Shown piece after piece: positions 12,969 to 29,760 of a DNA stretch of 30,286 bases. The DNA comes from a virus. Made by a program: the position numbers and the translations under genes. The stretch covers positions 1 through 30,286 of IMG/VR virus record IMGVR_UViG_3300029892_000013; one strand, 5' to 3'. Position 1 is the stretch's first letter. Every line of letters begins with the position of its first letter. Below the pieces are notes generated by a model. The model ran no database searches. It was not told where the DNA came from and was given only the letters and a program-made list of their open reading frames with translations.

Positions 12969-13171
12969 CAGCCAATCTCTATTTCGACGCCGTCGTCCGA
13001 AGACTTAAATGCGCCAAACACGACAGTGATTTTCGGAATCTCGTCGCGCTCGAACTTGATGCTCGTTGATTCTTGGCCCGGCAGGATTTCGCCAGCTTCG
13101 GTGTGAAGCGCGAAAACTGGCGCGCCGCCGGGCGCTTTCTGGCCGACAATTGGTTTGTAGATCAGTTTCAT
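12968..13171 (-). CDS. Hypothetical protein in connector operon, 67 aa
   Basis: Function not recognised. The small protein (MKLIYKPIVGQKAPGGAPVF at the N-terminus) is beta-like and acidic toward the end. It fits tightly between the head-tail adaptor and HK97 gp10-like genes, with four-base and one-base overlaps, so it is clearly translated with them. It could be a small connector or assembly factor; nothing in the sequence decides. Confidence 0.65.
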   Translation of the reverse strand: MKLIYKPIVGQKAPGGAPVFALHTEAGEILPGQESTSIKFERDEIPKITVVFGAFKSSDDGVEIEIG

Positions 13172-13500
13172 GTCGGCACCCCCGCCTCACAGTCGATCCG
13201 AAACTCCAGATCGCCCTTGCCGGGATAGGCGATGAAGCGAATCTGCATGGTGATGCCTTCCCACACGATGCGGTCGGCCGTGGTGAGCCCGCGCGTGCCG
13301 CTATCGTTCGGCACGGTCAGGCGATAGTTGCGCGGGCTCTCGGTCTGCTGTGCCGCAGCGCGCTCTCCACCGGACAGCGGCTTGACCTCGCACCAGCGGG
13401 AAATGAGATCGGCCCAGGTATCGACCGACCCGCCGGCGCCGTCCGGCGTGCTGGTGAAGCGCTGGAAGGTGACGCGCTGATCTCTGCTGCCGGCGGTCAT
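13168..13500 (-). CDS. Head-tail adaptor protein (phage_H_T_join family)
   Basis: Predicted stopper that closes the head exit channel and binds the tail. The 110-aa protein has the family pattern: RDQRVTFQRF at residues 6-15, a turn DGAGGSVDTWADLISRWCEV, then VPNDSGTRGL and TADRIVWEGITMQIRFI. It belongs to the SPP1 gp16/HK97 head-tail joining type. The ATG lies one base after the DUF6527 gene stop. In a usual siphovirus this gene directly follows the gp6/gp8-like connector; here about 4.2 kb of sugar and methyl genes lie between the two. Confidence 0.84.
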   Translation of the reverse strand: MTAGSRDQRVTFQRFTSTPDGAGGSVDTWADLISRWCEVKPLSGGERAAAQQTESPRNYRLTVPNDSGTRGLTTADRIVWEGITMQIRFIAYPGKGDLEFRIDCEAGVPT

Positions 13501-13501
13501 G

Positions 13502-13780
13502 TCAGCACTCGACGAACTGGCCGTCAGTCAGATAGCCGTGCCACTTGCAGCCTTCCATGTGGAGGATGCTCGGCCGGACTGTCGGCTTTTCGCGCGGACC
13601 AGAGAGCGTCCATTCGCGGTTGCCAAATGACACGCCGAGCAGCGAGCCGCAGCCGCAAGGGCACTGAAAGTTAATCCCCTCCGTGCCGTCCGGTGCCTTC
13701 CAATACTTGGCCTCGCCGGGCTTGGCTTGGTCGCCGACGACGTTTTCAACGAGGCGGAAGGTCGCGTTACGCTTGCTCAC
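13502..13780 (-). CDS. DUF6527-family zinc-ribbon-like protein
   Basis: Function unknown. The 92-aa protein contains FQCPCGCGSLLGVSF at about 38-52, then REWTLSGPREKPTVRPSILH and a CKWHGYLTDGQ end, which is the pattern of DUF6527. The CPCGCG cluster with a later Cys and His suggests a small metal-binding fold. It begins with GTG at 13780 overlapping the FkbM-type gene stop (GTGA) and ends one base before the head-tail adaptor. It is the last gene of the inserted cassette and may be a separate phage accessory, since related proteins are common in phages without sugar genes. Confidence 0.78.
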   Translation of the reverse strand: MSKRNATFRLVENVVGDQAKPGEAKYWKAPDGTEGINFQCPCGCGSLLGVSFGNREWTLSGPREKPTVRPSILHMEGCKWHGYLTDGQFVEC

Positions 13781-14448
13781 GCCGGCACCATGATGAAGTC
13801 GCCCGACATCTCGCGCGCCACGCGATAGCCGAGGCTTTGCAGGTATGTCACGGCGTCGGTCTGGCCGAGACCGAAGCCCTGCGCCTTGCCCGGCTTCTGC
13901 TCGACGCAGATCACCGGCATGTTGCGGCGGATAAGCTGCTCGCCGCCGCGGAGGGCGAAAAGCTCGTAGCCCTCGCAGTCGAGCTTGATGAAGTCGATAT
14001 TGTCGGCATCTGGCAGGACATCGTCGAGACGGCGCAGCGGAATATCTCCCTCGCCCGCGACCGTCGTATCGCCCGAGCTGGTCGTAGCGGTGTGCATGCT
14101 TACGCTGCCCTCTACCTCGCCAAGGGCGATCGGGTGCAGCTTTACCAAGGCCTCGCCAAGAATGCGGCGCTGTAGATGCGGGATATTCGCCTCGAAGCAG
14201 TCTCGATGCTCGGCAACGGGCTCGAAGGCGTCAACGGCCTGAAACCGCTTCACCATGTTCTGCGCCCATAATCCGCAGTGGGCGCCAACGTCGCAGGCGG
14301 CACGGAACTGCTTGCACAGGCCATATGCCGCGAGCTGCTTGTCGAGCTGGTACGTAAGCCGGCCGTCGACGACCTGATTCTTCTTCGTCATCCACTCGAC
14401 CAGATGGGTCTCATGATCCGGGAGCCAGACGCCGCCGACCTGTTTCAT
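13777..14448 (-). CDS. FkbM-family methyltransferase
   Basis: Predicted SAM-dependent O-methyltransferase; members often methylate sugar hydroxyls. In the 223-aa protein DVGAHCGL (53-60) is motif I, a VDAFEPVAEH segment follows near 72-81, and DFIKLDCEGYE (152-162) with GGEQLIRRNMPVICVEQK is the hallmark of the FkbM family. I chose the ATG at 14448, which has GAGGAAAG upstream and overlaps the glycosyltransferase stop (ATGA); a longer frame reads into that neighbour. Within a run of glycosyltransferases it probably caps or methylates the sugar they add, which is inference. Confidence 0.83.
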   Translation of the reverse strand: MKQVGGVWLPDHETHLVEWMTKKNQVVDGRLTYQLDKQLAAYGLCKQFRAACDVGAHCGLWAQNMVKRFQAVDAFEPVAEHRDCFEANIPHLQRRILGEALVKLHPIALGEVEGSVSMHTATTSSGDTTVAGEGDIPLRRLDDVLPDADNIDFIKLDCEGYELFALRGGEQLIRRNMPVICVEQKPGKAQGFGLGQTDAVTYLQSLGYRVAREMSGDFIMVPA

Positions 14449-15164
14449 GCCGCTTTCCTCAAGATGCTGTCCAGCGCCGCCACGACCTGCGCCGGGCTGA
14501 TCTGACTCATGGCCTTTTCGCAATGCCGGCAGGGGCCGCGATTGCCGCAGGCCTCGCCGCCGGTAAACAGGTTGATATGCGTGTCGTAGCCGGTGACATC
14601 CGGCGAGATATACCCGCCGAAGATCACCACCGCCGGAAGCCCGACCGCTGCCGCCGCATGATGCAAGCCACCCTCAGGCAGCACGGCAGCCGAGGCGACC
14701 GACAGAACCGCCAGCGCGTGGCCGAAGCTCGGCAGCGCCGGCATCTCCAACCACGGCAGGTCGGGGCGGAGCGTCATCAGGTCGGCCCAGCGGCCCCATT
14801 GCTTGTTCGGGCTGGCACCGGCCTTGATCCGCGGCTCGATGACCACCCGGCCGCGGTATTGCTCGGCCCAGTGCAGCAGGTCCGGTGGCAAGATCACCTT
14901 GGCCGGTACTGGCCGGTATGGCAGCCAGGCCCAGCGGTGCCGTGCGCTGCGGCTGTAGTCGATATATGGCCGACGCTGACCGCCGTTGACAATGTAGGGC
15001 AGTCCATCGCGCCATTGATTGCGCGGCAGAACGTCCGGGCAGTAGTCCCAGACGCCATACCATTTCTGTCGGCCGCGGCGGTCCAGAATGGCGACCGGGC
15101 GGCCATGGGTTTCCGCGGCCCGCCGAGCTTCTCCGGCAGCCATTAAGCAGTCGCCAATTCCCAC
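14445..15164 (-). CDS. Glycosyltransferase family 9-like (heptosyltransferase fold)
   Basis: Predicted GT-B glycosyltransferase that would move a sugar from a nucleotide donor. The N-terminus GIGDCLMAAGEARR and the C-terminal part with PEGGLHHAAAAVGLPAVVIF, then GGYISPDVTGYDTHINLFTG, match GT9/ADP-heptose transferase-like proteins. A late Cys set (ACGNRGPCRHCEKAM) is also typical of the phage-borne version. I place the start at a GTG at 15164, one codon after the stop of the previous gene, with GAGG ten bases upstream; an in-frame ATG at 15143 is the alternative. A much longer frame upstream only overlaps the methyltransferase gene. Confidence 0.76.
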   Translation of the reverse strand: MGIGDCLMAAGEARRAAETHGRPVAILDRRGRQKWYGVWDYCPDVLPRNQWRDGLPYIVNGGQRRPYIDYSRSARHRWAWLPYRPVPAKVILPPDLLHWAEQYRGRVVIEPRIKAGASPNKQWGRWADLMTLRPDLPWLEMPALPSFGHALAVLSVASAAVLPEGGLHHAAAAVGLPAVVIFGGYISPDVTGYDTHINLFTGGEACGNRGPCRHCEKAMSQISPAQVVAALDSILRKAA

Positions 15165-15166
15165 GG

Positions 15167-15664
15167 CTACAGCGCCTCGCGCAACATCAGTTGCGGGCCA
15201 ACCGGAAAGCGGTGTGCGAAAAGATCGCACCACCACCGAAAAGGCCGGACAGTGACATGCAGGTTCGTTCCGTCTGGGAAGGTCTTTTTCGCCGGCCGGC
15301 AACAAACAGAGGCGAACAGGAACTTCCCGGCGTAACCGGCGAGATCCTCAATCAGCGCCGGCAATTCGTCCTCCGGTACATGCTCCAGAACATCGGCGCA
15401 GATTACGCCGTCGAAGCGGCCCTCCGGCTTGGCTGAGAACGCCGCGGCACCGGGGTCGTAGAGGGTCGGCATGACACCGCGGAAATGCGTCTTGTGCACC
15501 CGGTCCTTCAGGTAGGCATTTCCCGAGCCGCAGCCGTAATCAAGCAGTGTGCGGGCGTCATGGCGGCGCACAAGTAGGGCGATTTCCGGCAGCCATTGCG
15601 AAATGCTGCGCGAGTTGAAGGCGCCGGCGGCATGCATGGCTTGGTACTGCTCAAGATACCGCAT
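15167..15664 (-). CDS. Class I SAM-dependent methyltransferase, 165 aa
   Basis: Predicted methyltransferase, substrate unknown. Motif I is LLDYGCGSGNAYL near 40-52, and GVICADVLEHVPEDELPALI near 86-105 fits the Methyltransf_11/23-like motif IV region. At 165 aa it is a short, minimal Rossmann domain. The C-terminal part (CCRPAKKTFPDGTNLHVTVR then PFRWWCDLF) lies where such enzymes end their substrate lobe. Start overlaps the upstream glycosyltransferase-like gene by 14 bases, and the next gene begins three bases before its stop. Sitting among glycosyltransferases suggests a sugar or lipid-linked sugar substrate; this is context only. Confidence 0.76.
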   Translation of the reverse strand: MRYLEQYQAMHAAGAFNSRSISQWLPEIALLVRRHDARTLLDYGCGSGNAYLKDRVHKTHFRGVMPTLYDPGAAAFSAKPEGRFDGVICADVLEHVPEDELPALIEDLAGYAGKFLFASVCCRPAKKTFPDGTNLHVTVRPFRWWCDLFAHRFPVGPQLMLREAL

Positions 15665-16379
15665 GCAGGTCCGCCCATGCCTTTCCGCTTTTCATTTCCT
15701 CAAGGCTCCACTGGCTGGCCGCAAGCGACGCCGCCCATTCCTCGCGCCCATCCGGTGTCGGCGGCGCCTCGATCTGATCGAGCCCGTCACCCGCCACCGG
15801 TGCCGCAGCACTCTCGCCGAGCACGATGGCCGGCACGCCCGCGATGATCGCTTCCACCGCGCAGTTGCTGGCCCATGTCACGACGCAATGGCAGCCCGCC
15901 AGATCAGCGGCCAGCGGCCTCGGGTCGCCTTTGCGCCGGACGATCACTGGCCGGTCAGTCTGTTCCCGGACCGCCGCGGCGATGTCGCCGGTGAAGCCGG
16001 CCACCGTGGCCATAAATTCGGCGCTTTGCAGGCAGACCACGACGTGCCGGCCACCGCGGCGCCACTTAGCTAACCTGACCCCGAGCCTAGCTAACCTCTC
16101 CGCATCCGGCCGGCATTGCGCCGCCTGTGCGGCATTGCGGGCGATGCGGAACCGTCCGGCTCCGATGAACCCGTTATCGATGTAGAACCAGTCTCGACCC
16201 TCGCCCTTCGCCTGGGCCCATAGATGCGCCCATTGCGGGCGGACCCCGTAGAATGCCGCCGCGCCCGGCAGGAGCGCCGCCGGGGTTTGCTCCAGCACCC
16301 GGCCGCCACATCCGGCCGCGAAGGCCCGGCAGACATCAAGCGCCTTGCCTTTGCCCGGCTGGGGGTAGCAGTGCAACAA
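15651..16379 (-). CDS. Glycosyltransferase-like, KpsC/KpsS-type GT-B fold, copy 2
   Basis: Predicted sugar transferase. The 242-aa protein aligns by eye with the next gene upstream: WFYIDNGFIGAGRFRIARNA (about 69-88) matches its VAENGYF segment, CVVTWASNCAVEAIIAGVPA matches its VVIWSSCSG segment, and both end in an NQWS/SQWS-EE helix. The WASNCAVEAIIAGVPAIVL pattern resembles the nucleotide-sugar lobe of capsule synthesis proteins KpsC/KpsS. It begins with TTG at 16379, overlapping the upstream gene by 44 bases, an unusually long overlap; the conserved N-terminal text LHCYPQPGKGKALDVCRAF supports that start. Confidence 0.66.
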   Translation of the reverse strand: MLHCYPQPGKGKALDVCRAFAAGCGGRVLEQTPAALLPGAAAFYGVRPQWAHLWAQAKGEGRDWFYIDNGFIGAGRFRIARNAAQAAQCRPDAERLARLGVRLAKWRRGGRHVVVCLQSAEFMATVAGFTGDIAAAVREQTDRPVIVRRKGDPRPLAADLAGCHCVVTWASNCAVEAIIAGVPAIVLGESAAAPVAGDGLDQIEAPPTPDGREEWAASLAASQWSLEEMKSGKAWADLHAVS

Positions 16380-17124
16380 ACGGCAGGCCCCTTGCGATTT
16401 CCTCGACCGACCACTGGTTCGCAGCGGCGTTTGCCAGGCCGGCGGAACGGTCGCCTAGAAACGGCCTTTCAAGATCGGCGCCGGCCAGCGGCATTGCGGC
16501 CAGCTCACAAATCCACCGCGGCGCGGCATAGAAAACCGGAATGCCGGCCAGCAGGGCCGCAATACCGGAGCAGCTCGACCAGATCACCACCGCATGGGCG
16601 CCGCGCAGGTCATGCTCGAGCGGCACTTTCGGCGCGTCGTTGCCGGGATGCCGGCGGAACCTGACCGGCCGGCGCGTCTGCACACCAAGGCGGTCGGCAA
16701 TCTGTCCGTTCGCCCATTCCGGCGGCGAGGCCATCAGACGCGACCCGATGCCGCGCTGCCCGACGACCAGGATGTGATCGCCTTCGGTGCGCCAGGGCTG
16801 CAAATTCCCAAACTCAGGGTTTTTTATGCAGATCCTATGCGCGCCGCCGTGGTGATGCTGGCCCCGGCTAATCGCATAGGCGCCAGGCGGCTTGCCATGC
16901 TCGGCGAAATACCCGTTCTCAGCCACCAGCACATGACCGCCGGCCCGCTCGTACTGCGCCGCCAGATCGTCGTTCACCCCGTAGCGGTTCCAGATCACCA
17001 GCAGGTTGCCCGGCCCAGGCTTCGGCTGCTGCGTCACCGACCAGCCCGCAGCGCGCAGGCCAGCCAGGAAGGCGTCATGCCGATAGTGCGGCTTGTCGCG
17101 GATCAGCAGGCAGGCAGTCGGCAA
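16336..17124 (-). CDS. Glycosyltransferase-like, KpsC/KpsS-type GT-B fold, copy 1
   Basis: Predicted sugar transferase, a paralogue of the next gene. The 262-aa protein starts with ACLLIRDKPHYRHDAFLAGL, then LLVIWNRYGVNDDLAAQYER, a GGHVLVAENGYFAEHGKPPG segment, and a C-terminal lobe AHAVVIWSSCSGIAALLAGI ending in NQWSVEEIARGLPF. The serine-rich loop followed by AALLAGIPV is the kind of site that holds the donor in KpsC/KpsS-type proteins. The likely start is TTG at 17124, because similarity begins immediately there, although no good ribosome site is seen; it overlaps the previous gene by 50 bases. Confidence 0.67.
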   Translation of the reverse strand: MPTACLLIRDKPHYRHDAFLAGLRAAGWSVTQQPKPGPGNLLVIWNRYGVNDDLAAQYERAGGHVLVAENGYFAEHGKPPGAYAISRGQHHHGGAHRICIKNPEFGNLQPWRTEGDHILVVGQRGIGSRLMASPPEWANGQIADRLGVQTRRPVRFRRHPGNDAPKVPLEHDLRGAHAVVIWSSCSGIAALLAGIPVFYAAPRWICELAAMPLAGADLERPFLGDRSAGLANAAANQWSVEEIARGLPFVALLPPAGQRQGA

Positions 17125-17713
17125 GGGCGGCTCGCGGGAAGCAGTCTAGCGCAGAGCCCGGCGTGCAGTTGATGACCTCGACGCCGCGCTGTTTCAGCGG
17201 TTCGACCAGGGTCGGGAACTTTGGGAGCATCGTGCCGGAATAGACATGCGGCTGGGTCGCCTTCGGGTGATCTCCGAACCAATGGCCGGGCTTCATGTCG
17301 TAGCCCAGCAGCAGGATGCGCCGCGCACCGAGATGGACGGCCAGATTGATGCACTGATACCCGGAATTCCCGCCGGTCATCACGCCCCAGCGTTCCGGGT
17401 AGAGCCCGGTCTGCCCGACATTGTGCAGGCACCACAGGCCCGGCACGACGTCGCGCAGATGGTAGTTTTCCAGGGTGGCGACCTGGCCGCGAAACGACAG
17501 CACTCCAGCCCGGTGCCAGTTGAACCACTTTTCGTCGCAGAACCAAAGCAGGTCCGCCCACTGCGCCAGCCTGTAGGCGTCGTTGATGCCGATCACCCGG
17601 ACACGGCCACGGCAGGCGTTGACCTGATCGGCCGTCAGCGACTTGCCGCCGCCCAGAATGGCGACCGTCTCGCCCGGCCAGATGTCCGGGACGTGGGTTG
17701 ACCGATGATCCAC
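17075..17713 (-). CDS. MptE/DUF115-like phage protein
   Basis: Predicted Rossmann-like enzyme of unknown reaction. The 212-aa protein carries VAILGGGKSLTADQVNACRG (about 17-36), VIGINDAYRLAQWADLLWFC (about 40-59) and MTGGNSGYQCINLAVHLGAR (about 112-131) followed by ILLLGYDMKPG. This Gly-rich and aspartate pattern resembles the DUF115/MptE-like group, which occurs with glycosyltransferases in phages and in bacterial surface-glycan loci. It starts with GTG at 17713, three bases after the connector gene stop. It is the first gene of the cassette, so it is under the same transcript as the connector. Confidence 0.66.
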   Translation of the reverse strand: MDHRSTHVPDIWPGETVAILGGGKSLTADQVNACRGRVRVIGINDAYRLAQWADLLWFCDEKWFNWHRAGVLSFRGQVATLENYHLRDVVPGLWCLHNVGQTGLYPERWGVMTGGNSGYQCINLAVHLGARRILLLGYDMKPGHWFGDHPKATQPHVYSGTMLPKFPTLVEPLKQRGVEVINCTPGSALDCFPRAALADCLPADPRQAALSA

Positions 17714-17716
17714 GGC

Positions 17717-18322
17717 TCAGACGCGCCAGACCTTCAGGGGGAAGATCACGGCATCAAGACCGAACGGCATCGGCCCGGAGCCGCTCGGCGCCATCACCGG
17801 CGCACGATTTGCCCACCAGTGGACGACCAAATCGGTGACCGCGCGCTCAGCTTCAGGCGGCGCCTCGGTCGGGCTGGCGTCATTGTCGTATCCGCAGGTA
17901 AAGCGGATCGTAATTGCGTCCATTTGGTCGCGGACGACCGGCCAGGACTGGTCATAGGCCTCGGTGACGCGGCCGCAATGCGCGTACATGCCGGAGGGCG
18001 CTGAAACTTGGTATTTCGAGGTGGCGAGGGTCTGCAGATCGCCGTTTTCGTCAACATATTTGATGAAATCGACGCTGATCAGTGGCGGTTTCGGCAGAAT
18101 TATGGGCGATCCGTCGCTCGGGAAGCACCGAAAGGCCGCTTCCCACGTCTGCCGGCGCAAAGCGCGGCCTGTTTCGGCCTCAATCTGCGCCCGGGCAGCC
18201 GCAATCAGCCGGGTCAGGTAGTTGTCTTCGTCGGTACTGTCGATGCGGGCCTCCGCTTTGACCTGCGGCAGGTCAACGGGCTCTGATCCGCTCTGAGAAA
18301 TCAGGCTGAGGCGCATGTTCAT
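17717..18322 (-). CDS. Head-tail connector, phiE125 gp8 / HK97 gp6-like
   Basis: Predicted adaptor ring protein that attaches to the portal. The 201-aa protein has the family start (MNMRLSLISQSGSEPVDLPQ), then VKAEARIDSTDEDNYLTRLI and AARAQIEAETGRALRRQTWE, a strong match to the phiE125 gp8/HK97 gp6 connector pattern. The C-terminal half includes DAITIRFTCGYDND and a long helix around ERAVTDLVVHWWANR. It is a normal length. There is no clear Shine-Dalgarno before the ATG at 18322; the space upstream is filled by a stable UUCG hairpin, so translation may be limited. Confidence 0.83.
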   Translation of the reverse strand: MNMRLSLISQSGSEPVDLPQVKAEARIDSTDEDNYLTRLIAAARAQIEAETGRALRRQTWEAAFRCFPSDGSPIILPKPPLISVDFIKYVDENGDLQTLATSKYQVSAPSGMYAHCGRVTEAYDQSWPVVRDQMDAITIRFTCGYDNDASPTEAPPEAERAVTDLVVHWWANRAPVMAPSGSGPMPFGLDAVIFPLKVWRV

Positions 18323-18358: not shown

Positions 18359-18757
18359 TCAGCTGACCGGGGCGATGTGCGGATGGCCGAGCAGTACGGT
18401 CGCGCCGAAGGCGCAGCCGGTCGCCGGGCTCGGGGAACCGCCGGTTTCGGTCGCAACCACGCGGATGTACCGCTTGCTGCCGACATACCCGACCCGCTTG
18501 ACGGTGTTATCGTCATCGGAGTCGATGGTCGGCTCGGTGCCGATCAGGTTGTCGTCGGAAACCGCCGAGAACGAGCTGTTGTCGTCGGATTCCTGGACTT
18601 CGAAGGCGAAAGCGCCGTCGGTGCAGGCGCCCACCGAGATCAGAACCGTTGCCGAGTCATAATCGCGGAGATCGACGCCAGTGCCGTTGACGCTCGTGGT
18701 GCGGAGCAGAGGCGCAATGCTGACCTCCGCGCCGACATTGGACTTCATATCGCGCAT
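18359..18757 (-). CDS. Hypothetical protein after the capsid, possible decoration protein
   Basis: Function not firmly recognised. The 132-aa protein is beta-rich and acidic, with GTGVDLRDYDSATVLISVGA near residues 25-44, FAFEVQESDDNSSFSAVSDD and YVGSKRYIRVVATETGG near 91-107. This composition is typical of small secondary capsid or decoration-like proteins often encoded right after the major capsid gene. GGAGG nine bases before the ATG gives strong translation. Hairpins lie on both sides. The decoration role is inferred from location. Confidence 0.66.
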   Translation of the reverse strand: MRDMKSNVGAEVSIAPLLRTTSVNGTGVDLRDYDSATVLISVGACTDGAFAFEVQESDDNSSFSAVSDDNLIGTEPTIDSDDDNTVKRVGYVGSKRYIRVVATETGGSPSPATGCAFGATVLLGHPHIAPVS

Positions 18758-18832: not shown

Positions 18833-20149
18833 TTAGGCGGCGAACTTCACGAACTTGATCGCTTCGAAGTTCAGCACGCCGGCGCCTACGCGCTTGGTCG
18901 TGTAGAACTTAACGTAGGGCTTCGCGGTGTACGGGTCACGCAGCACGCGAATGCCTTGGCGATCAAGGATCTGATAACCGACCTTGAAGTTGCCGAACGC
19001 CAGCGACAGGGAACCCGCCGCCAGAGTGGGCATATCTTCGGCCATCAGGATCGGATAGCCAATCAGCGACGCCGGCTTACCGGCCTGGAGGCCGGGCTGC
19101 CAGAGGTACTGAGAGTCGCTACCCTTGAACTTGCGCACCTTCGTGATGACCTGGCGGCGGGTCACCCAGGAAGCGCCGGCCAGATAGCCGGTCTTCATGG
19201 CGCCCTCGACATCGAACAGGATGTCGGCCGGGTTGGAGGCGGCGAAGTCGCCGTTGACGCCCGTGGCGACATGCTCCAGCTGGCCCCAGGTGCGGGACGA
19301 GTCCGCGGTCGCCGCAGTCGTGTAGCTGCAGATGCCGCGGATTTTCGTGGAGCCATTGATGAACTGCTCGTTCTCGAAGCGCGAGAACTTGTCAGCCACC
19401 TTGCCGGCGAGCCAGGCCTCAACATCGACCGCCGCGTCGTCCAGCAACTGCTGCGTTGCCTTCGGCTCGGTGTCGATGATGAAGACCGGAATGCGCCATT
19501 TGCCGATCTGCGGGGTCGTGGTGTTGCCCGAGGTTGCCCGTTCGTCGGCATAGCCTGCGCCCGCCTCGCCCAGGTCCTCGATGCCTTCCATCGCGTCGGT
19601 CGAGATGGTCTGGACATCTGCGATCTGGCGCAGCGGCGAGGTTTCGTACAGCTTGGTCACGACCCGGCCCGTGGTATCGGGGGTGACGAGGTAGCCGCCG
19701 TCCGGGTCGCCGCCAACTGACATGGTCTTGAGCTCGTCGGCGGTCAGGCTCTGGTGACCCTTACGCAGATAGTTCTGCGCGAGCGTCTTGTATTCACCGA
19801 GAACCTTCTCGTCGACCGGATTGCCCTTCAGTTCGAAGGCATCGCGAGCGATGTTGAACTGCTTGACTTCCTCGGCCGCCTTCGCGGTGTCGGCGTTGCC
19901 GATCTGAGGACGGTTGAGCTTCTTTTCCAGCTCATCCATGCGCTCCTTGTGCGCCTTCTCAAGCGCATCCTTCTTGGCCTGGAGATCGTCGAGGCTCTTG
20001 TTCAGCTTCTCGAGCTTGTCGGCCGTAACGACGTCAGCGAAGCCCTTCTTGACTTCTTTGATCTGCGCATCGTTGGTCTGCTTGAACTCTTCGAACGCTT
20101 TGCCGAGGTCTTCGACGACCTTGGTCAATTCAGTGTCCATGTCGGGCAT
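18833..20149 (-). CDS. Major capsid protein, HK97 fold
   Basis: Predicted subunit of the icosahedral head. The 438-aa protein starts with a coiled-coil N-terminal domain (about 1-95, with DKLEKLNKSLDDLQAKKDAL and KERMDELEKKLNRPQ), as in the scaffold-like delta domain of HK97 gp5 that is removed by the protease. The mature part begins with typical family text (LKTMSVGGDPDGGYLVTPDT), then GKWRIPVFI, ASWVTRRQVITKVRKFK and LIGYPILMAEDMPTLA near the end. AAGGA lies upstream of the ATG. The protease gene directly before it supports this processing route. The isopeptide cross-link residues of HK97 were not checked. Confidence 0.93.
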   Translation of the reverse strand: MPDMDTELTKVVEDLGKAFEEFKQTNDAQIKEVKKGFADVVTADKLEKLNKSLDDLQAKKDALEKAHKERMDELEKKLNRPQIGNADTAKAAEEVKQFNIARDAFELKGNPVDEKVLGEYKTLAQNYLRKGHQSLTADELKTMSVGGDPDGGYLVTPDTTGRVVTKLYETSPLRQIADVQTISTDAMEGIEDLGEAGAGYADERATSGNTTTPQIGKWRIPVFIIDTEPKATQQLLDDAAVDVEAWLAGKVADKFSRFENEQFINGSTKIRGICSYTTAATADSSRTWGQLEHVATGVNGDFAASNPADILFDVEGAMKTGYLAGASWVTRRQVITKVRKFKGSDSQYLWQPGLQAGKPASLIGYPILMAEDMPTLAAGSLSLAFGNFKVGYQILDRQGIRVLRDPYTAKPYVKFYTTKRVGAGVLNFEAIKFVKFAA

Positions 20150-20160
20150 GGTCTGTCCTT

Positions 20161-20841
20161 TCAGGATTTGATGGTTGCGGTGAGCCGACGCAGCGCGTCG
20201 GTTACGTCGCTCCCGTCCTCATCCCGAGGTTCCGGTCGAGCTTTAAAGCCGCCTGCGGCAATGGCCTTGGCGGCGGCATTCGAGTAGCCGCCTACATCCC
20301 GTAGGAAGTCCTCGAAATCACGAATGGTCTTAACGTCGTCGGCTGCCTTTGCGGCGCTGCGCGCCTTACTGTTTGCGGGGAAGGTCACCGGACTGATTTC
20401 CAAAAGGTGGACCTTCTTCAGCGTGCGGCGCGGCTCGTCGGGCTTGGTTCCGAGACTCCACTCCTTTGCCTGGTATCCGATGCTAAGCCCGTCAATCGCC
20501 GGCCGCGGCTCCATCTTCATCAGCGTGTACATCTCGCGACCGCGAGCGGTGTCGGCCAGCTTGCCGACAACGCGGAGGCCTTTCTCATCCTCTTCCAACT
20601 CGGTCCACACTCCGATAGGGGTCATATCGTCCGCCGACATCCCCCATCCGCCATGCTGCGAAAGCATGGCCGGCCAAATGCCAGTCTTCTTCGCCTCCCG
20701 CAGCGTCTCTCGGAACGCGCCTTTGGCAATCACGTCTCCGTGGGAGTCTATGTTCCCGAATACGGCGCCATAGCCTTCGAACATCATGCCCGCCGGATCA
20801 CCGGCAAGCTTCAGTTCCAGCGCACAGTTAAGTCGGCTCAT
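20161..20841 (-). CDS. Prohead maturation protease, HK97 gp4-like
   Basis: Predicted serine protease that trims the capsid N-terminal domain. In the 226-aa protein FEGYGAVFGNIDSHGDVIAK (about 21-40) is the family opener, MLSQHGGWGMSADDMTPIGV carries the candidate catalytic His, AIDGLSIGYQ the candidate Ser, and LLEISPVTFPANSKARS the family end motif. The C-terminal 60 residues are a helical extension. I chose the ATG at 20841, which overlaps the portal stop by 14 bases; upstream sequence in the same frame overlaps the portal and lacks family similarity. Confidence 0.92.
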   Translation of the reverse strand: MSRLNCALELKLAGDPAGMMFEGYGAVFGNIDSHGDVIAKGAFRETLREAKKTGIWPAMLSQHGGWGMSADDMTPIGVWTELEEDEKGLRVVGKLADTARGREMYTLMKMEPRPAIDGLSIGYQAKEWSLGTKPDEPRRTLKKVHLLEISPVTFPANSKARSAAKAADDVKTIRDFEDFLRDVGGYSNAAAKAIAAGGFKARPEPRDEDGSDVTDALRRLTATIKS

Positions 20842-22087
20842 TGTCGCCTCCGTCGCCCGGCTTCTTGCCGTCGTCAGATGGATTGTTCGGATCTTCCATG
20901 TTGAGGGGCACGCGATACTTGTCGCCGCCCTCATACGGGTTCATGTCCTCGAGGGCGCGAATCTCGTTCGGGTTCAGCGCGCCGACGCCGTACATCTTCG
21001 TGTAGAAATCGCCGCGGTCCTTGATGTTGCCGCGGAGGAGTCCGTTGACAAAGAACTTGCAGAACAGGCCGCCCTGACGCTCTTCCTTGGTCAGCAGGTT
21101 AACATCGGCCGACTGCTCCCACGCCTCGTACCCCGGCCCGAGTGTGTGAACGACATGGGCGCCGAAGAACTGTTCGGCGCTCGCGTAGGTCGGCGCCTTG
21201 TCGCTGTAGCCGATCATCTGCGGGAAGACGCCCATCGTGCGGCAAACTTCCTCGACCTGAAACTTGCGCGTCTCCAGATGCTGAGCGTCGACGCCGGTCA
21301 TCTGCGTCTGAAGCCATTTCGCATTGCGGTCCAAGATCATCGGAAGGCCGGCATTCTTCGATCCGGCGTGGTTCTTCTCGATGAACTTGCGCAGCGCTTC
21401 GTACTGCTCGTCGCGCAGTGTGCCCTCTACCGAATAGACGCCCGTATTCTGGACGCCCTTTTCGTGCAGACGCGCCTGGCTCTCTTCCGACGCCATGGCG
21501 AGGCCGATCGCCTCGCGTGCCAGCTTGACGGCCTCCATCCCCATCCAGGAATTCCACGACGCACCGCGCAGGTGCCAGATCGCTTCAGCCGGAAAAACTT
21601 GTGCCTGCCCGCTGTCGGGCCGGACGGTATAGGTCAGCGAGTAGTCCGGGTTCCGCTTGACCGTTACCCAGCCCGGCTCGAAGGGGATGATTTCGACGAC
21701 CTTACCGCCGACGCGATTGAGGAAGGCGAAAGCATTGCCGCAGAGAACCCGGTGCAGCTCCATGGTCTGCCGCAATTCGAAGCTGGTCTGCCACGGATTT
21801 GGCCGGCGGTGCAGGACATCGAACAGGGCGTGGTCCGTGGCCGGCAACTTCGTCGAAAGACCGTTCTGCCCGCCAGTCTCGCGCATCAGTCGAAACGGAA
21901 CCTGAGCAATGCCGTTCGCACGCACGGTCGCGCAGGCGAGCACGACACTGACCTGCAGGGCGGACTTCCACGTTACGGTCTGGCCGCTTTTGCTCGGCGG
22001 CGAGCCGTAAATCTCGCGGAACAGGTCCAGCGTACCGTTCGAGGCTTTCGCCTCCGAGCCGTACAGCAGGCGGTTCCAGAAACCCAT
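20828..22087 (-). CDS. Portal protein, HK97 family
   Basis: Predicted dodecameric portal through which DNA is packaged and ejected. The 419-aa protein shows LQVSVVLACATVRANGIAQV (about 45-64) with VPFRLMRE, then HRRPNPWQTSFELRQTMELH, the VIPFEPGWVTVK strand, and TGVDAQHLETRKFQVEEVCR followed by MGVFPQMIGYSDKAPTYAS, all standard for Phage_portal HK97-type proteins. The C-terminal part includes NEIRALEDMNPYEGGDKYRV, also typical. GAGAGG precedes the ATG. It lies between large terminase and protease, the canonical order. Confidence 0.94.
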   Translation of the reverse strand: MGFWNRLLYGSEAKASNGTLDLFREIYGSPPSKSGQTVTWKSALQVSVVLACATVRANGIAQVPFRLMRETGGQNGLSTKLPATDHALFDVLHRRPNPWQTSFELRQTMELHRVLCGNAFAFLNRVGGKVVEIIPFEPGWVTVKRNPDYSLTYTVRPDSGQAQVFPAEAIWHLRGASWNSWMGMEAVKLAREAIGLAMASEESQARLHEKGVQNTGVYSVEGTLRDEQYEALRKFIEKNHAGSKNAGLPMILDRNAKWLQTQMTGVDAQHLETRKFQVEEVCRTMGVFPQMIGYSDKAPTYASAEQFFGAHVVHTLGPGYEAWEQSADVNLLTKEERQGGLFCKFFVNGLLRGNIKDRGDFYTKMYGVGALNPNEIRALEDMNPYEGGDKYRVPLNMEDPNNPSDDGKKPGDGGDNEPT

Positions 22088-27444: not shown

Positions 27445-28904
27445 TCCGTCACCCATGCAGGAGGTTCGCCCAGGTCAGCGCCGATCCCAGGCAGGTCCGT
27501 AAATTCGTTGCAGGCGATGTTGCAGGCGATGCGCGCCGTGCCGATGGCGCCGCTGCGGTTCTTCTCGATGATGATCTCAGCGGTACCGCGTACGGCATCC
27601 ATGCGCTGATCCCAGGCCGCCCATTCCGGGCTATCCTTGACGCGCGGCTCTTTCCGGCTTTCGTAATACTCGGCGCGGAAGGGAAACATGATCACGTCGG
27701 CATCCTGCTCGATGGCGCCTGATTCGCGCAGGTCGCTCATCTGTGGCCGCTTGTCGTCCCGGCTCTCGACGGCGCGGGAAAGCTGCGACAGGGCGATGAT
27801 GGGGATATTCAGCCGCTTGGCGACGTTCTTGAGTTGCCCGGTGATCTCGCCGATCTCGGCAACCTTGTTGCCCCGGTAACGGTCGCCGCTGCGGCAAAGC
27901 TGCAGGTAATCAACGGCGGCCAGGGCGATCGATCGGCCGTATTTCTGGAGCGAGATGGCGTTCAGCCGCAGCAGCTCGGACTGGATGCCGACGGGTGTCC
28001 GGGCGCCTGTGTCGTCGATCCACAGCGGAATGGCGTCCAGCCTGCGCCGGGCGGCGTCCAGGCGCTGCACGGCATCGGCAGGCAGGCCGTGGCCCGTCCG
28101 CATGGCAAAGAACGGTATGCCGGTCAGGCGGGACAGCAGGCGCTGCGTGACGGCTTCCTTGCTCTGCTCCAGGCTGAACAGCACGGCAGGGTCGCCGGCC
28201 ATGGCGGCAGACAGCTCAACGTCGATCACCAGCGCGGTCTTGCCCATGCTGGGGCGGCCGGCCACGATGATCAGATCCTGCGGGTGCATGCCGCCAAGCT
28301 TGGCGTCCAGGGCGCGAATGCCGGTTTTCAGGCCCGGCGGTTTGCCGCCCTGCATGATGGCCTGCACCGCCTCGACCTCGCGGGCGGCAATCTTGCCGGC
28401 ATGCTCGGGCCGGTGTTCCGCGCTCCGGCCGGTGTCGGGTATGGCCTGCAGCTCGGCAATGCCCTGCTCGATCAGGTCGTCGGCGGAATCCTCGACCCTG
28501 GGATCGTAGGCGCGGCTTACAATGCCCTCGCCAATCCCGATCACCTCGCGCCGCAGGGCCAGGTCATGCACGACATGGGCATAATCCTCGGCGTTGATCA
28601 CCGTCGTTGCCGCCGCAGCCAGGCGGGCGAAATATGAGGTTCCCCCGGCCTTGGCAATCACCTCGTCCTGCCCGAAATAGGCCACCAGCTTGACCGGATC
28701 GACCCGTTCGCCCCGGTCGATCATCGTTGCGCAGGCCGTCCATGTCCGCCGGTGCGCCTCGTGGAAGAAATGCTCCGCGCGCAGGAAGCCGTTGACCTTG
28801 TGATAGGCCGCGTTGTTGACGAGGATCGCGCCCAGCAATTCCTGCTCGGCGTCGAGGTTCGCCGGCTGCTGCCTTTCGGGTGTTGAATTGAAGATGGCGT
28901 TCAT
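27441..28904 (-). CDS. Replicative DNA helicase, DnaB-like
   Basis: Predicted hexameric 5'-3' helicase of the phage replication fork. In the 487-aa protein the N-terminal domain opens with PANLDAEQELLGAILVN (14-30), Walker A is GRPSMGKT near 199-206, and Walker B is VDYLQL near 314-319, followed by the usual KRLNIPIIALSQLSRAVESR and SDLRESGAIEQDADVIMF. The C-terminus lacks a strange extension. The ATG at 28904 overlaps the HNH stop (ATGA) and has AAGG upstream. A full-length DnaB suggests that replication does not need the host helicase. Confidence 0.94.
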   Translation of the reverse strand: MNAIFNSTPERQQPANLDAEQELLGAILVNNAAYHKVNGFLRAEHFFHEAHRRTWTACATMIDRGERVDPVKLVAYFGQDEVIAKAGGTSYFARLAAAATTVINAEDYAHVVHDLALRREVIGIGEGIVSRAYDPRVEDSADDLIEQGIAELQAIPDTGRSAEHRPEHAGKIAAREVEAVQAIMQGGKPPGLKTGIRALDAKLGGMHPQDLIIVAGRPSMGKTALVIDVELSAAMAGDPAVLFSLEQSKEAVTQRLLSRLTGIPFFAMRTGHGLPADAVQRLDAARRRLDAIPLWIDDTGARTPVGIQSELLRLNAISLQKYGRSIALAAVDYLQLCRSGDRYRGNKVAEIGEITGQLKNVAKRLNIPIIALSQLSRAVESRDDKRPQMSDLRESGAIEQDADVIMFPFRAEYYESRKEPRVKDSPEWAAWDQRMDAVRGTAEIIIEKNRSGAIGTARIACNIACNEFTDLPGIGADLGEPPAWVTE

Positions 28905-29395
28905 GCGCCTTTTTTCCTCGCCCAATACAGCCGCCGCGCTGCGATGCGCTGGCACTCGCGGCAGAAGCGGCTGCCCTTATATTTGTAGGTATTCTCGCGG
29001 TCGTAAGGGTGCCCGTTCGGGCAATGTGTCTTTGCGGCCCATTGCTGGCCGCCCTCACCTCGCCGGATATTTTCTTGCTGAGTAACCGGCTCAAGGTGAT
29101 TTGGGTTGACGCAATTTCGGCAGCGGCACAGGTGGTCGATCTGGTAGCCGCGCGGTATTTCACCTCGGAACATTTCAAATGTGAATCGGTGTGCCTGGGC
29201 AAGGCGGCTTTCCTGACGTGTCTTGCCGGGAACCCATATCTGCCCGTAGCCAGTAGATGATTTGCTGCCATTCCAGAGCCAGCACCCTGTAGCCTCATCT
29301 ATGGAAACCTTGCCCATGACGCGCAGCACGAGATCGGCATGCGGAACGATGCGATATTGGACGCGGACCAGCGGGTCGGGCGGGAGCGCGGTCAT
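28901..29395 (-). CDS. HNH endonuclease, HNH_3-type, in the early operon
   Basis: Predicted HNH nuclease. The 164-aa protein contains GCWLWNGSKSSTGYGQI (about 37-53), then AHRFTFEMFRGEIPRGYQID with HLCRCRNCVNPNHLEPVTQQ (about 68-107), the His-Asn-His core, and a C-terminal zinc motif CPNGHPYDRENT with FCRECQR. It is of the free-standing phage kind and may be a homing-type element, though its ATGA and TGATG overlaps show it is well fitted to the operon. The start is the ATG at 29395; an in-frame longer frame overlaps the upstream gene and is not used. Confidence 0.85.
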   Translation of the reverse strand: MTALPPDPLVRVQYRIVPHADLVLRVMGKVSIDEATGCWLWNGSKSSTGYGQIWVPGKTRQESRLAQAHRFTFEMFRGEIPRGYQIDHLCRCRNCVNPNHLEPVTQQENIRRGEGGQQWAAKTHCPNGHPYDRENTYKYKGSRFCRECQRIAARRLYWARKKGA

Positions 29396-29760
29396 CACAC
29401 CCCCGCCGGCCGAAAGAAGAAGCACCAGAGCGTGTCGTGCCCGCAGCCGAAGAACCGCCCCTCGGGATCGCGGCTCTCGTAAGTGCCCTGCATGTTCTGC
29501 TGAAATACCTGCCCGGTCGGCTTGTACAGCCAGCCGTCGGGCGTCCATTGCACGTCGCGGTTATTGAGCGGCCGGCAATGCGAGCGGTCGCAGCAATGCA
29601 CGTCGGTATTGCGCATGAGGTATCGCGGCTCGGCCTGTATCCAGTCGTGGTCGCCGAGATCAGGGCCTTTGCCGTGGTGATCCTGCCCCCACGCATAGAC
29701 GGCGGCCAGCATCGCGGCTGCTGTGACGGAGGCGACGAGGATGCAGCTTGCCCTACTCAC
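29395..29760 (-). CDS. Small exported Cys-rich protein, 121 aa
   Basis: Function not recognised. The N-terminus (VSRASCILVASVTAAAMLAA then VYAWGQDHHG) looks like a signal peptide with likely cleavage after about residue 24. The mature part has a CCDRSHC cluster near 55-61 and more Cys near the end (FGCGHDTLWCFFF), with a WTPDGWLY segment near 70-77, resembling a small periplasmic family seen in alphaproteobacteria and their phages. The start is GTG at 29760, overlapping the previous stop (GTGA). Finding a secreted protein in the replication operon is unusual. Confidence 0.7.
   Translation of the reverse strand: MSRASCILVASVTAAAMLAAVYAWGQDHHGKGPDLGDHDWIQAEPRYLMRNTDVHCCDRSHCRPLNNRDVQWTPDGWLYKPTGQVFQQNMQGTYESRDPEGRFFGCGHDTLWCFFFRPAGV

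Follow-up and report, generated by a model that had tools for sequence, protein, structure and literature searches.

Why should a phage keep genes for sugar transfer and methylation between two proteins of its neck? The question is raised by IMG/VR record IMGVR_UViG_3300029892_000013, a 30,286-base stretch (all of it hereafter the window) of an HK97-like siphovirus, the minus strand of which carries terminase, portal, protease, major head protein, connector, head closure, tail terminator, major tail protein and tape measure. In this series, seven tightly packed late-strand genes (13502-17713) separate the connector gene, here Ad1, from the head-closure gene, here Hc1; an original prediction, made from the letters of the window, had given these coordinates and this gene order, and both were correct on recheck. 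It had proposed a sugar and methyl cassette acting either on the virion or on the host surface. We find the virion half better supported, and consider it probable, at roughly 0.57, that this is a virion-glycosylation cassette made together with the late genes; acceptor, donors and activity are what we infer, and modification of the host envelope remains the main rival.

Is the Ad1/Hc1 interval a site of insertion at all? Ad1 (17717..18322, minus strand, as are all window genes given with coordinates up to the mosaic comparison below) is a phiE125 gp8 / HK97 gp6-like head-tail connector (TIGR02215 phage_chp_gp8, E 9.6e-26; phrog_442, head-tail adaptor), as had been proposed for the upstream flank. 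The downstream flank, called a head-tail adaptor in the prediction, is a neck gene as expected, though its name is better given as head closure (Hc1, 13168..13500; PF05521, 1.9e-18; phrog_25; TIGR01563). In the cassette-free relatives L110, L111 and L122-L124 the two genes lie 6-13 nucleotides (nt) apart, so they are indeed normally neighbours, and because these relatives have head proteins in common with the window (the major head protein of L110 is 53% identical) the gap is a real insertion point. From Ad1 to Hc1, in the order of transcription, the junctions are a 3-nt gap, overlaps of 50, 44 and 14 nt, a 2-nt gap, two overlaps of 4 nt and a 1-nt gap. Overlap at most junctions thus holds for five of eight, the other three being gaps of 1-3 nt, with the 50- and 44-nt overlaps dependent on inferred TTG starts (that of KpsA, the second gene, is open in the relative L002 too). 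In line with the prediction, no sigma-70-like promoter was found in the cassette stretch (1.0 expected in shuffles), and its two terminator-like sites are fewer than the 4.0 expected.

What the genes encode is only partly evident from single sequences, which give firm names to the FkbM methyltransferase, the small methyltransferase and the DUF6527 protein; the MptE-, GT9- and KpsC-like proteins are below threshold or without a match, and their identities are backed by alignment profiles and structure. The checks that the prediction had suggested, structure prediction and profile search, yielded a Maf fold for MptE, a KpsC/WbbB fold for KpsA and a WaaF/WaaC profile for GT9. The first gene after Ad1 (17075..17713) encodes the MptE/DUF115-like protein of Maf/CstII fold that we propose as initiating enzyme. 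With Pfam PF01973 it scores 18.0 bits, under the gathering score of 34.6, while its alignment profile places CstII sialyltransferases at the top, weakly (E about 0.07). The best solved structure for its AlphaFold2 model (predicted local distance difference test, pLDDT, 95) is the Maf flagellin O-glycosyltransferase 5mu5 (Z 15.5, root mean square deviation 3.4, 187 residues aligned); Z is about 12 each for CstI/CstII and archaeal MptE, and the model has a predicted Rossmann-like glycosyltransferase core as in CstII. The known Maf and CstI/CstII enzymes use acidic sugar donors activated by cytidine monophosphate (CMP): Maf enzymes O-glycosylate Ser/Thr of flagellin with nonulosonates, and accept CMP-N-acetylneuraminic acid (CMP-Neu5Ac) and CMP-3-deoxy-D-manno-octulosonic acid (CMP-Kdo) (PMC11339370). 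Unlike Maf, the phage protein has 212 amino acids, its full length aligning to residues 252-516 of the 632-residue Maf chain. We rejected 'sialyltransferase' as its literal name: phrog_4603, 'alpha-2,3-sialyltransferase' (E 6.8e-41), provides this by annotation only, and the fold is common to Maf and archaeal MptE. A protein of another locus (L120:2161-2868) looks MptE/CstII-like by eye (GLGPSS, FNTTAAYAVAYAL, LFGCDF) and matched no Pfam family.

The next two genes, KpsA (16336..17124, TTG start) and KpsB (15651..16379), bear out the claim of two paralogous KpsC-like glycosyltransferases (hhalign probability 100, E 1.5e-50, 26% identity between the pair). The KpsA alignment profile matches KpsC (E 5.6e-6), and its AlphaFold2 model (pLDDT 90), KpsA being the one of the pair that was modelled, recovers only retaining Kdo transferases in all 22 Foldseek matches at E<=1e-3, with Z 12.3 to KpsC over 220 residues and Z falling below 8 past the Kdo-transferase group. 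KpsB is assigned through its paralogy with KpsA; alone it matches the DUF6716 'putative glycosyltransferase' family (E 0.006, single sequence), and its profile finds weak GT-B matches only in the PDB. The likeness to the retaining Kdo transferases KpsC, WbbB and KrkA thus lies in the KpsA fold, a motif containing His-Pro and the paralogous pair, whereas the phage proteins are shorter and the catalytic loop differs, as discussed below. KpsA keeps the His-Pro motif followed by a Ser-containing strand (RxxHP and WSS), which KpsB has lost, and clade-specific motifs (GQRGIGS, RxHP, QW..EE) are conserved in the two families. A single-sequence KpsA search of viral contigs found L002 alone, and alignments were used instead.

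The remaining four genes begin with a small class I S-adenosylmethionine (SAM) methyltransferase (15167..15664; PF13489 Methyltransf_23, 31.9 bits against a cut-off of 27; phrog_24759, 4.2e-22). It is followed by a GT9 heptosyltransferase-like protein (14445..15164) whose alignment profile matches WaaF (1.7e-8) and WaaC (2.2e-6), and which also has a TIGR02195 match (3.3e-4); as a single sequence it reaches 15.2 bits with PF01075 (cut-off 22), and the profile supports the C-terminal donor-binding region. Its start is more likely GTG 15164 than TTG 15305, which gives the longest open reading frame (ORF). The FkbM-family methyltransferase (13777..14448) is recognised by PF05050 (54.7 bits, cut-off 22.7), TIGR01444 (68.3, cut-off 37.7) and phrog_8156, and its alignment profile matches 2py6 (4.8e-7). 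The last gene (13502..13780) encodes a DUF6527 protein (PF20137, 3e-17), which belongs to no known class of sugar or methyl enzyme and which a single-sequence profile did not find in related loci. For these two reasons we place it in the operon and outside the conserved glycan set, so that the seven-gene cassette originally proposed stands, on profiles and folds, for six genes. No cassette protein has a strongly hydrophobic segment (highest 19-residue mean 1.89).

Does the arrangement recur? Scans of viral contigs, one bacterial-genome scan and a phage collection gave 140 loci with at least one core cassette gene (114 once redundancy at 90% identity is removed). Every cassette gene and every head or neck gene lies on a single strand in 107/107 loci with recognised head or neck genes. 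As loci were retrieved through cassette genes, save a set found through the major head protein that serves as the cassette-free comparison, this linkage is no product of the search, and it supports the predicted co-expression with virion genes. Comparing phages with and without the cassette, as the prediction had advised, further showed that the window's order is kept in all 16 fetched loci with all five core families; over all loci, 306 of 331 gene pairs follow it and 25 do not. Given the kept order and strand, the cassette is not a chance insertion, and its recurrence in many unrelated phages makes the case for gene content, linkage and likely co-expression much stronger than the letters of the window could. 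Its commonest place is the interval between major head protein and Ad1, then the Ad1/Hc1 interval or a site past the tail terminator. MptE is the member most frequently found alone, and stands without partners between major head protein and connector in L024, L036, L037, L150, L155 and L159. Elsewhere GT9-FkbM-KpsB lies between the major head protein and another virion structural protein (L089-type loci), MptE with a methyltransferase between head-morphogenesis and major head genes (L149), and six members between portal and connector genes on the Bradyrhizobium elkanii plasmid pUSDA31-2, where the stretch read has a full phage gene set. Frequent extra members are a GT8-like transferase (35 loci), another methyltransferase (15 loci) and a second putative transferase family (21 loci) that includes P1 pmgQ, annotated as a glycosyltransferase, and whose representative matched no Pfam family.

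Several other genes accompany these loci. A radical SAM/SPASM protein lies within one cassette (L071:6578-7522), FAD-oxidoreductase and sugar-epimerase-like genes occur in others, and in L087-L091 and L098 a TPR-repeat protein with a weakly GT9-like C-terminus precedes GT9-FkbM-KpsB. GDSL-type hydrolases are present in the connector region of two loci without the full cassette (L111:5819-6988, Lipase_GDSL 2.5e-6; L120:4090-5580, Lipase_GDSL_2 5.6e-16), so that this may be a hot spot for genes that act on glycans or serve decoration.

Homologues in named phages are likewise found in or adjoining virion genes. The giant Caulobacter phages carry MptE-KpsA-KpsB-glycosyltransferase-methyltransferase-GT9 past the tail genes and ahead of endolysin/lysozyme genes (CcrColossus gp126-131); in D3 (orf7, orf12 and orf13), PAJU2 (gp10-12) and Tetraselmis virus S20 the connector region contains MptE with partner genes; and P1 has two MptE-like genes, pmgO and pmgP, with the related transferase pmgQ, pmgP (L106; 79 bits) being a second member of the MptE family that overlaps pmgO by about 100 nt. 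All have a homologous MptE and several have further cassette members, though compared with the window the sets are smaller or placed differently; their annotations are mostly sialyltransferase, morphogenetic or hypothetical. In XacN1 the order is MptE-MptE followed by two glycosyltransferases, then large genes on the same strand.

How does the cassette move? Protein identity between the window and L002 is 88-95% for MptE (95%), KpsA and KpsB and 57-93% for Hc1 and most of the tail region, against 22-39% for terminase, portal, protease, head protein and Ad1 (about 20% for the major head protein), similarity beginning at the Ad1/MptE border. This mosaic suggests, judging by identities, that the cassette moves with the tail side. 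Unlike this case, L128 and L136 record a module moving alone: KpsA-KpsB-GT9-FkbM are 78-89% identical while MptE, Ad1 and Hc1 are 30-39% identical, and the module stands at a different place. The ratio of nonsynonymous to synonymous substitution rates (dN/dS) between window and L002 is 0.07-0.45 (0.22 for KpsA and 0.16 for KpsB), indicating purifying selection.

How, then, might such a cassette act? We propose that the MptE-like protein would transfer a first acidic sugar to Ser/Thr of a virion protein, in the way that Maf modifies flagellin, drawing on a CMP-activated sugar of the host, for example CMP-Kdo or a CMP-nonulosonate. KpsA, KpsB and the GT9 protein would extend the glycan from donors of the type used for the lipopolysaccharide (LPS) core in a Gram-negative host (CMP-Kdo, adenosine diphosphate (ADP)-heptose), and the methyltransferases would methylate it. 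The resulting coat would come into play once the particle is assembled, in adsorption, stability or evasion, and assembly would not depend on it; P1 can grow lytically without pmgO, pmgP and pmgQ (PMC10695390), and this speaks against a role in assembly itself. A collagen-like protein with a carbohydrate-binding module (L054:16-645, Pfam Collagen 6.9e-18, and about 12 further loci including PAJU2, L105) lies near MptE in the portal/Ad1 interval of several loci and is a possible candidate acceptor.

The main rival, which we judge unlikely, is late modification of the host envelope, remodelling LPS core or capsule against superinfection or binding of progeny to debris and, in lysogens, amounting to serotype conversion. 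Folds like those of Kdo transferases and heptosyltransferases do serve LPS core and capsule in bacteria, some relatives of the cassette are in prophages or phage-plasmids, and an LPS-type glycosyltransferase of a temperate Sinorhizobium phage has been interpreted in this way (PMC5537653). Yet the cassette lacks a flippase, any membrane component and strongly hydrophobic segments, and in this, as in its late-operon placement, it is unlike the serotype-converting (Gtr-type) modules, with their membrane flippase/transferase and lysogenic expression; the linkage is to virion genes, and the giant Caulobacter phages carry the cassette by tail and lysis genes. Virion glycosylation is the better supported because the predicted fold of the MptE-like protein is that of a protein O-glycosyltransferase, and is further favoured because MptE often stands alone between capsid and connector genes, because Corndogvirus virions are reportedly glycosylated by a cassette of glycosyltransferases and methyltransferase that is similarly placed in the operon, and because XacN1, with two homologues, has at least two reported glycoproteins (PMC5852040). 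The same-strand head and neck linkage, kept order, occurrence in other virion types, purifying selection and dispensability of the pmg genes count on the same side.

We regard it as quite improbable that these are moron-like accessory genes in a strongly expressed operon whose target has nothing to do with virion or envelope and could be, for example, phage DNA, a small molecule or a defence protein. Position and membership do vary between phages, and L058 and L158 carry the cassette close to replication genes, an observation that also weighs against virion glycosylation; conserved order and Maf-, Kdo- and heptose-type folds nevertheless fit glycan building, and no PADLOC defence family was matched, for which reason a defence system was rejected as a candidate. 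No gene for base modification was found in the subset of the window's genes that was searched, a search not aimed at DNA modification. Other points also tell against glycosylation of the virion. The extra N- and C-terminal domains of known Maf proteins are absent from the MptE-like protein, and the XacN1 glycoproteins were attributed by their authors to other glycosyltransferase genes, ORF328 and ORF334 (PMC5852040). The cassettes recombine independently of their neighbours and do not point to one dedicated acceptor, and rank correlations of co-inheritance gave no consistent answer as to head or tail. Finally, Asp160 of KpsC is the Kdo-adduct residue (PDB titles and KpsC alignment), and in a HMMER alignment to KpsC the main phage clade of KpsA appears to read GQRGIGS in that loop, with no Asp; only divergent relatives have one (GQVxGDxS). 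The window's KpsA, apparently without the catalytic Asp, would then differ in chemistry or donor, or be inactive, and for want of the Asp it cannot be named a KpsC-type enzyme despite its Kdo-transferase fold. This loop, with the His-Pro motif missing from KpsB, is what could suggest a partly decayed set in which activity is left to MptE and the methyltransferases, KpsA/KpsB having turned into structural or inactive glycosyltransferase relatives; the purifying selection on both and their retained clade-specific motifs make this very improbable.

Might the virion-glycosylation cassette be part of something more general? One extension, which we offer tentatively and hold to be rather unlikely, is an exchangeable two-part system in phages of Gram-negative bacteria, in which a Maf-like primer of the phage backbone would be combined with an interchangeable KpsA-KpsB-GT9-FkbM module, with extra transferases and methyltransferases, that builds an LPS-core-like methylated glycan from host Kdo and heptose, so that the particle would resemble the host surface. 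An MptE belonging to the backbone and an exchanged extension module would fit L128/L136, a single comparison; against L002, MptE and the module travelled together.

Phage-encoded virion glycosylation is already known, so the cassette is not a new kind of system. Documented so far mainly for mycobacteriophages, it is represented by Corndog, where glycosyltransferases and an O-methyltransferase lie between portal and protease genes (PMC4351075) and are reported, in Freeman 2023 as cited in PMC11600133, to modify capsid and tail tube. The window shares with Corndogvirus and other mycobacteriophage systems (PMC4351075, PMC11600133, PMC12363180) glycosyltransferase and methyltransferase genes in a same-strand virion operon, but the Corndogvirus cassette occupies the portal/protease interval and not that between major head protein and connector, and the hosts differ; its genes, represented by Firecracker and Catdawg (L162/L163), matched none of the cassette profiles at E 0.01. 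The apparent novelty is that different enzymes form a widely shared cassette at the head-tail connector, conserved along with its gene order, and that well-studied phages have relatives of it among genes to which no function is assigned; no paper describing it was found among open-licence literature. If our reading is true, this would be a second system, not detectably homologous to that of Corndogvirus, spanning siphoviruses, other virion types, giant Caulobacter phages, P1 and D3. It would give a function to unexplained 'morphogenetic' and 'sialyltransferase' genes of P1 and D3, and would bear on adsorption, particle stability and antibody recognition of phages.

Elsewhere in the window, the major head protein (18833..20149, minus strand; phrog_10, 2.7e-56) is separated from the connector by a phrog_5707 protein (18359..18757, minus strand), the DNA of which resembles a Streptomyces phage Chymera gene annotated 'capsid cementing protein'. 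The longest ORFs of protease (20161-20934) and portal (20828-22087) overlap by 107 nt, and the protease start may be further downstream. A weak M15 peptidase match at 1232-1915 (20.8 bits, below cut-off) marks a possible endolysin, and an HNH_3 endonuclease at 28901-29548 overlaps another long frame upstream of a DnaB-like helicase gene.

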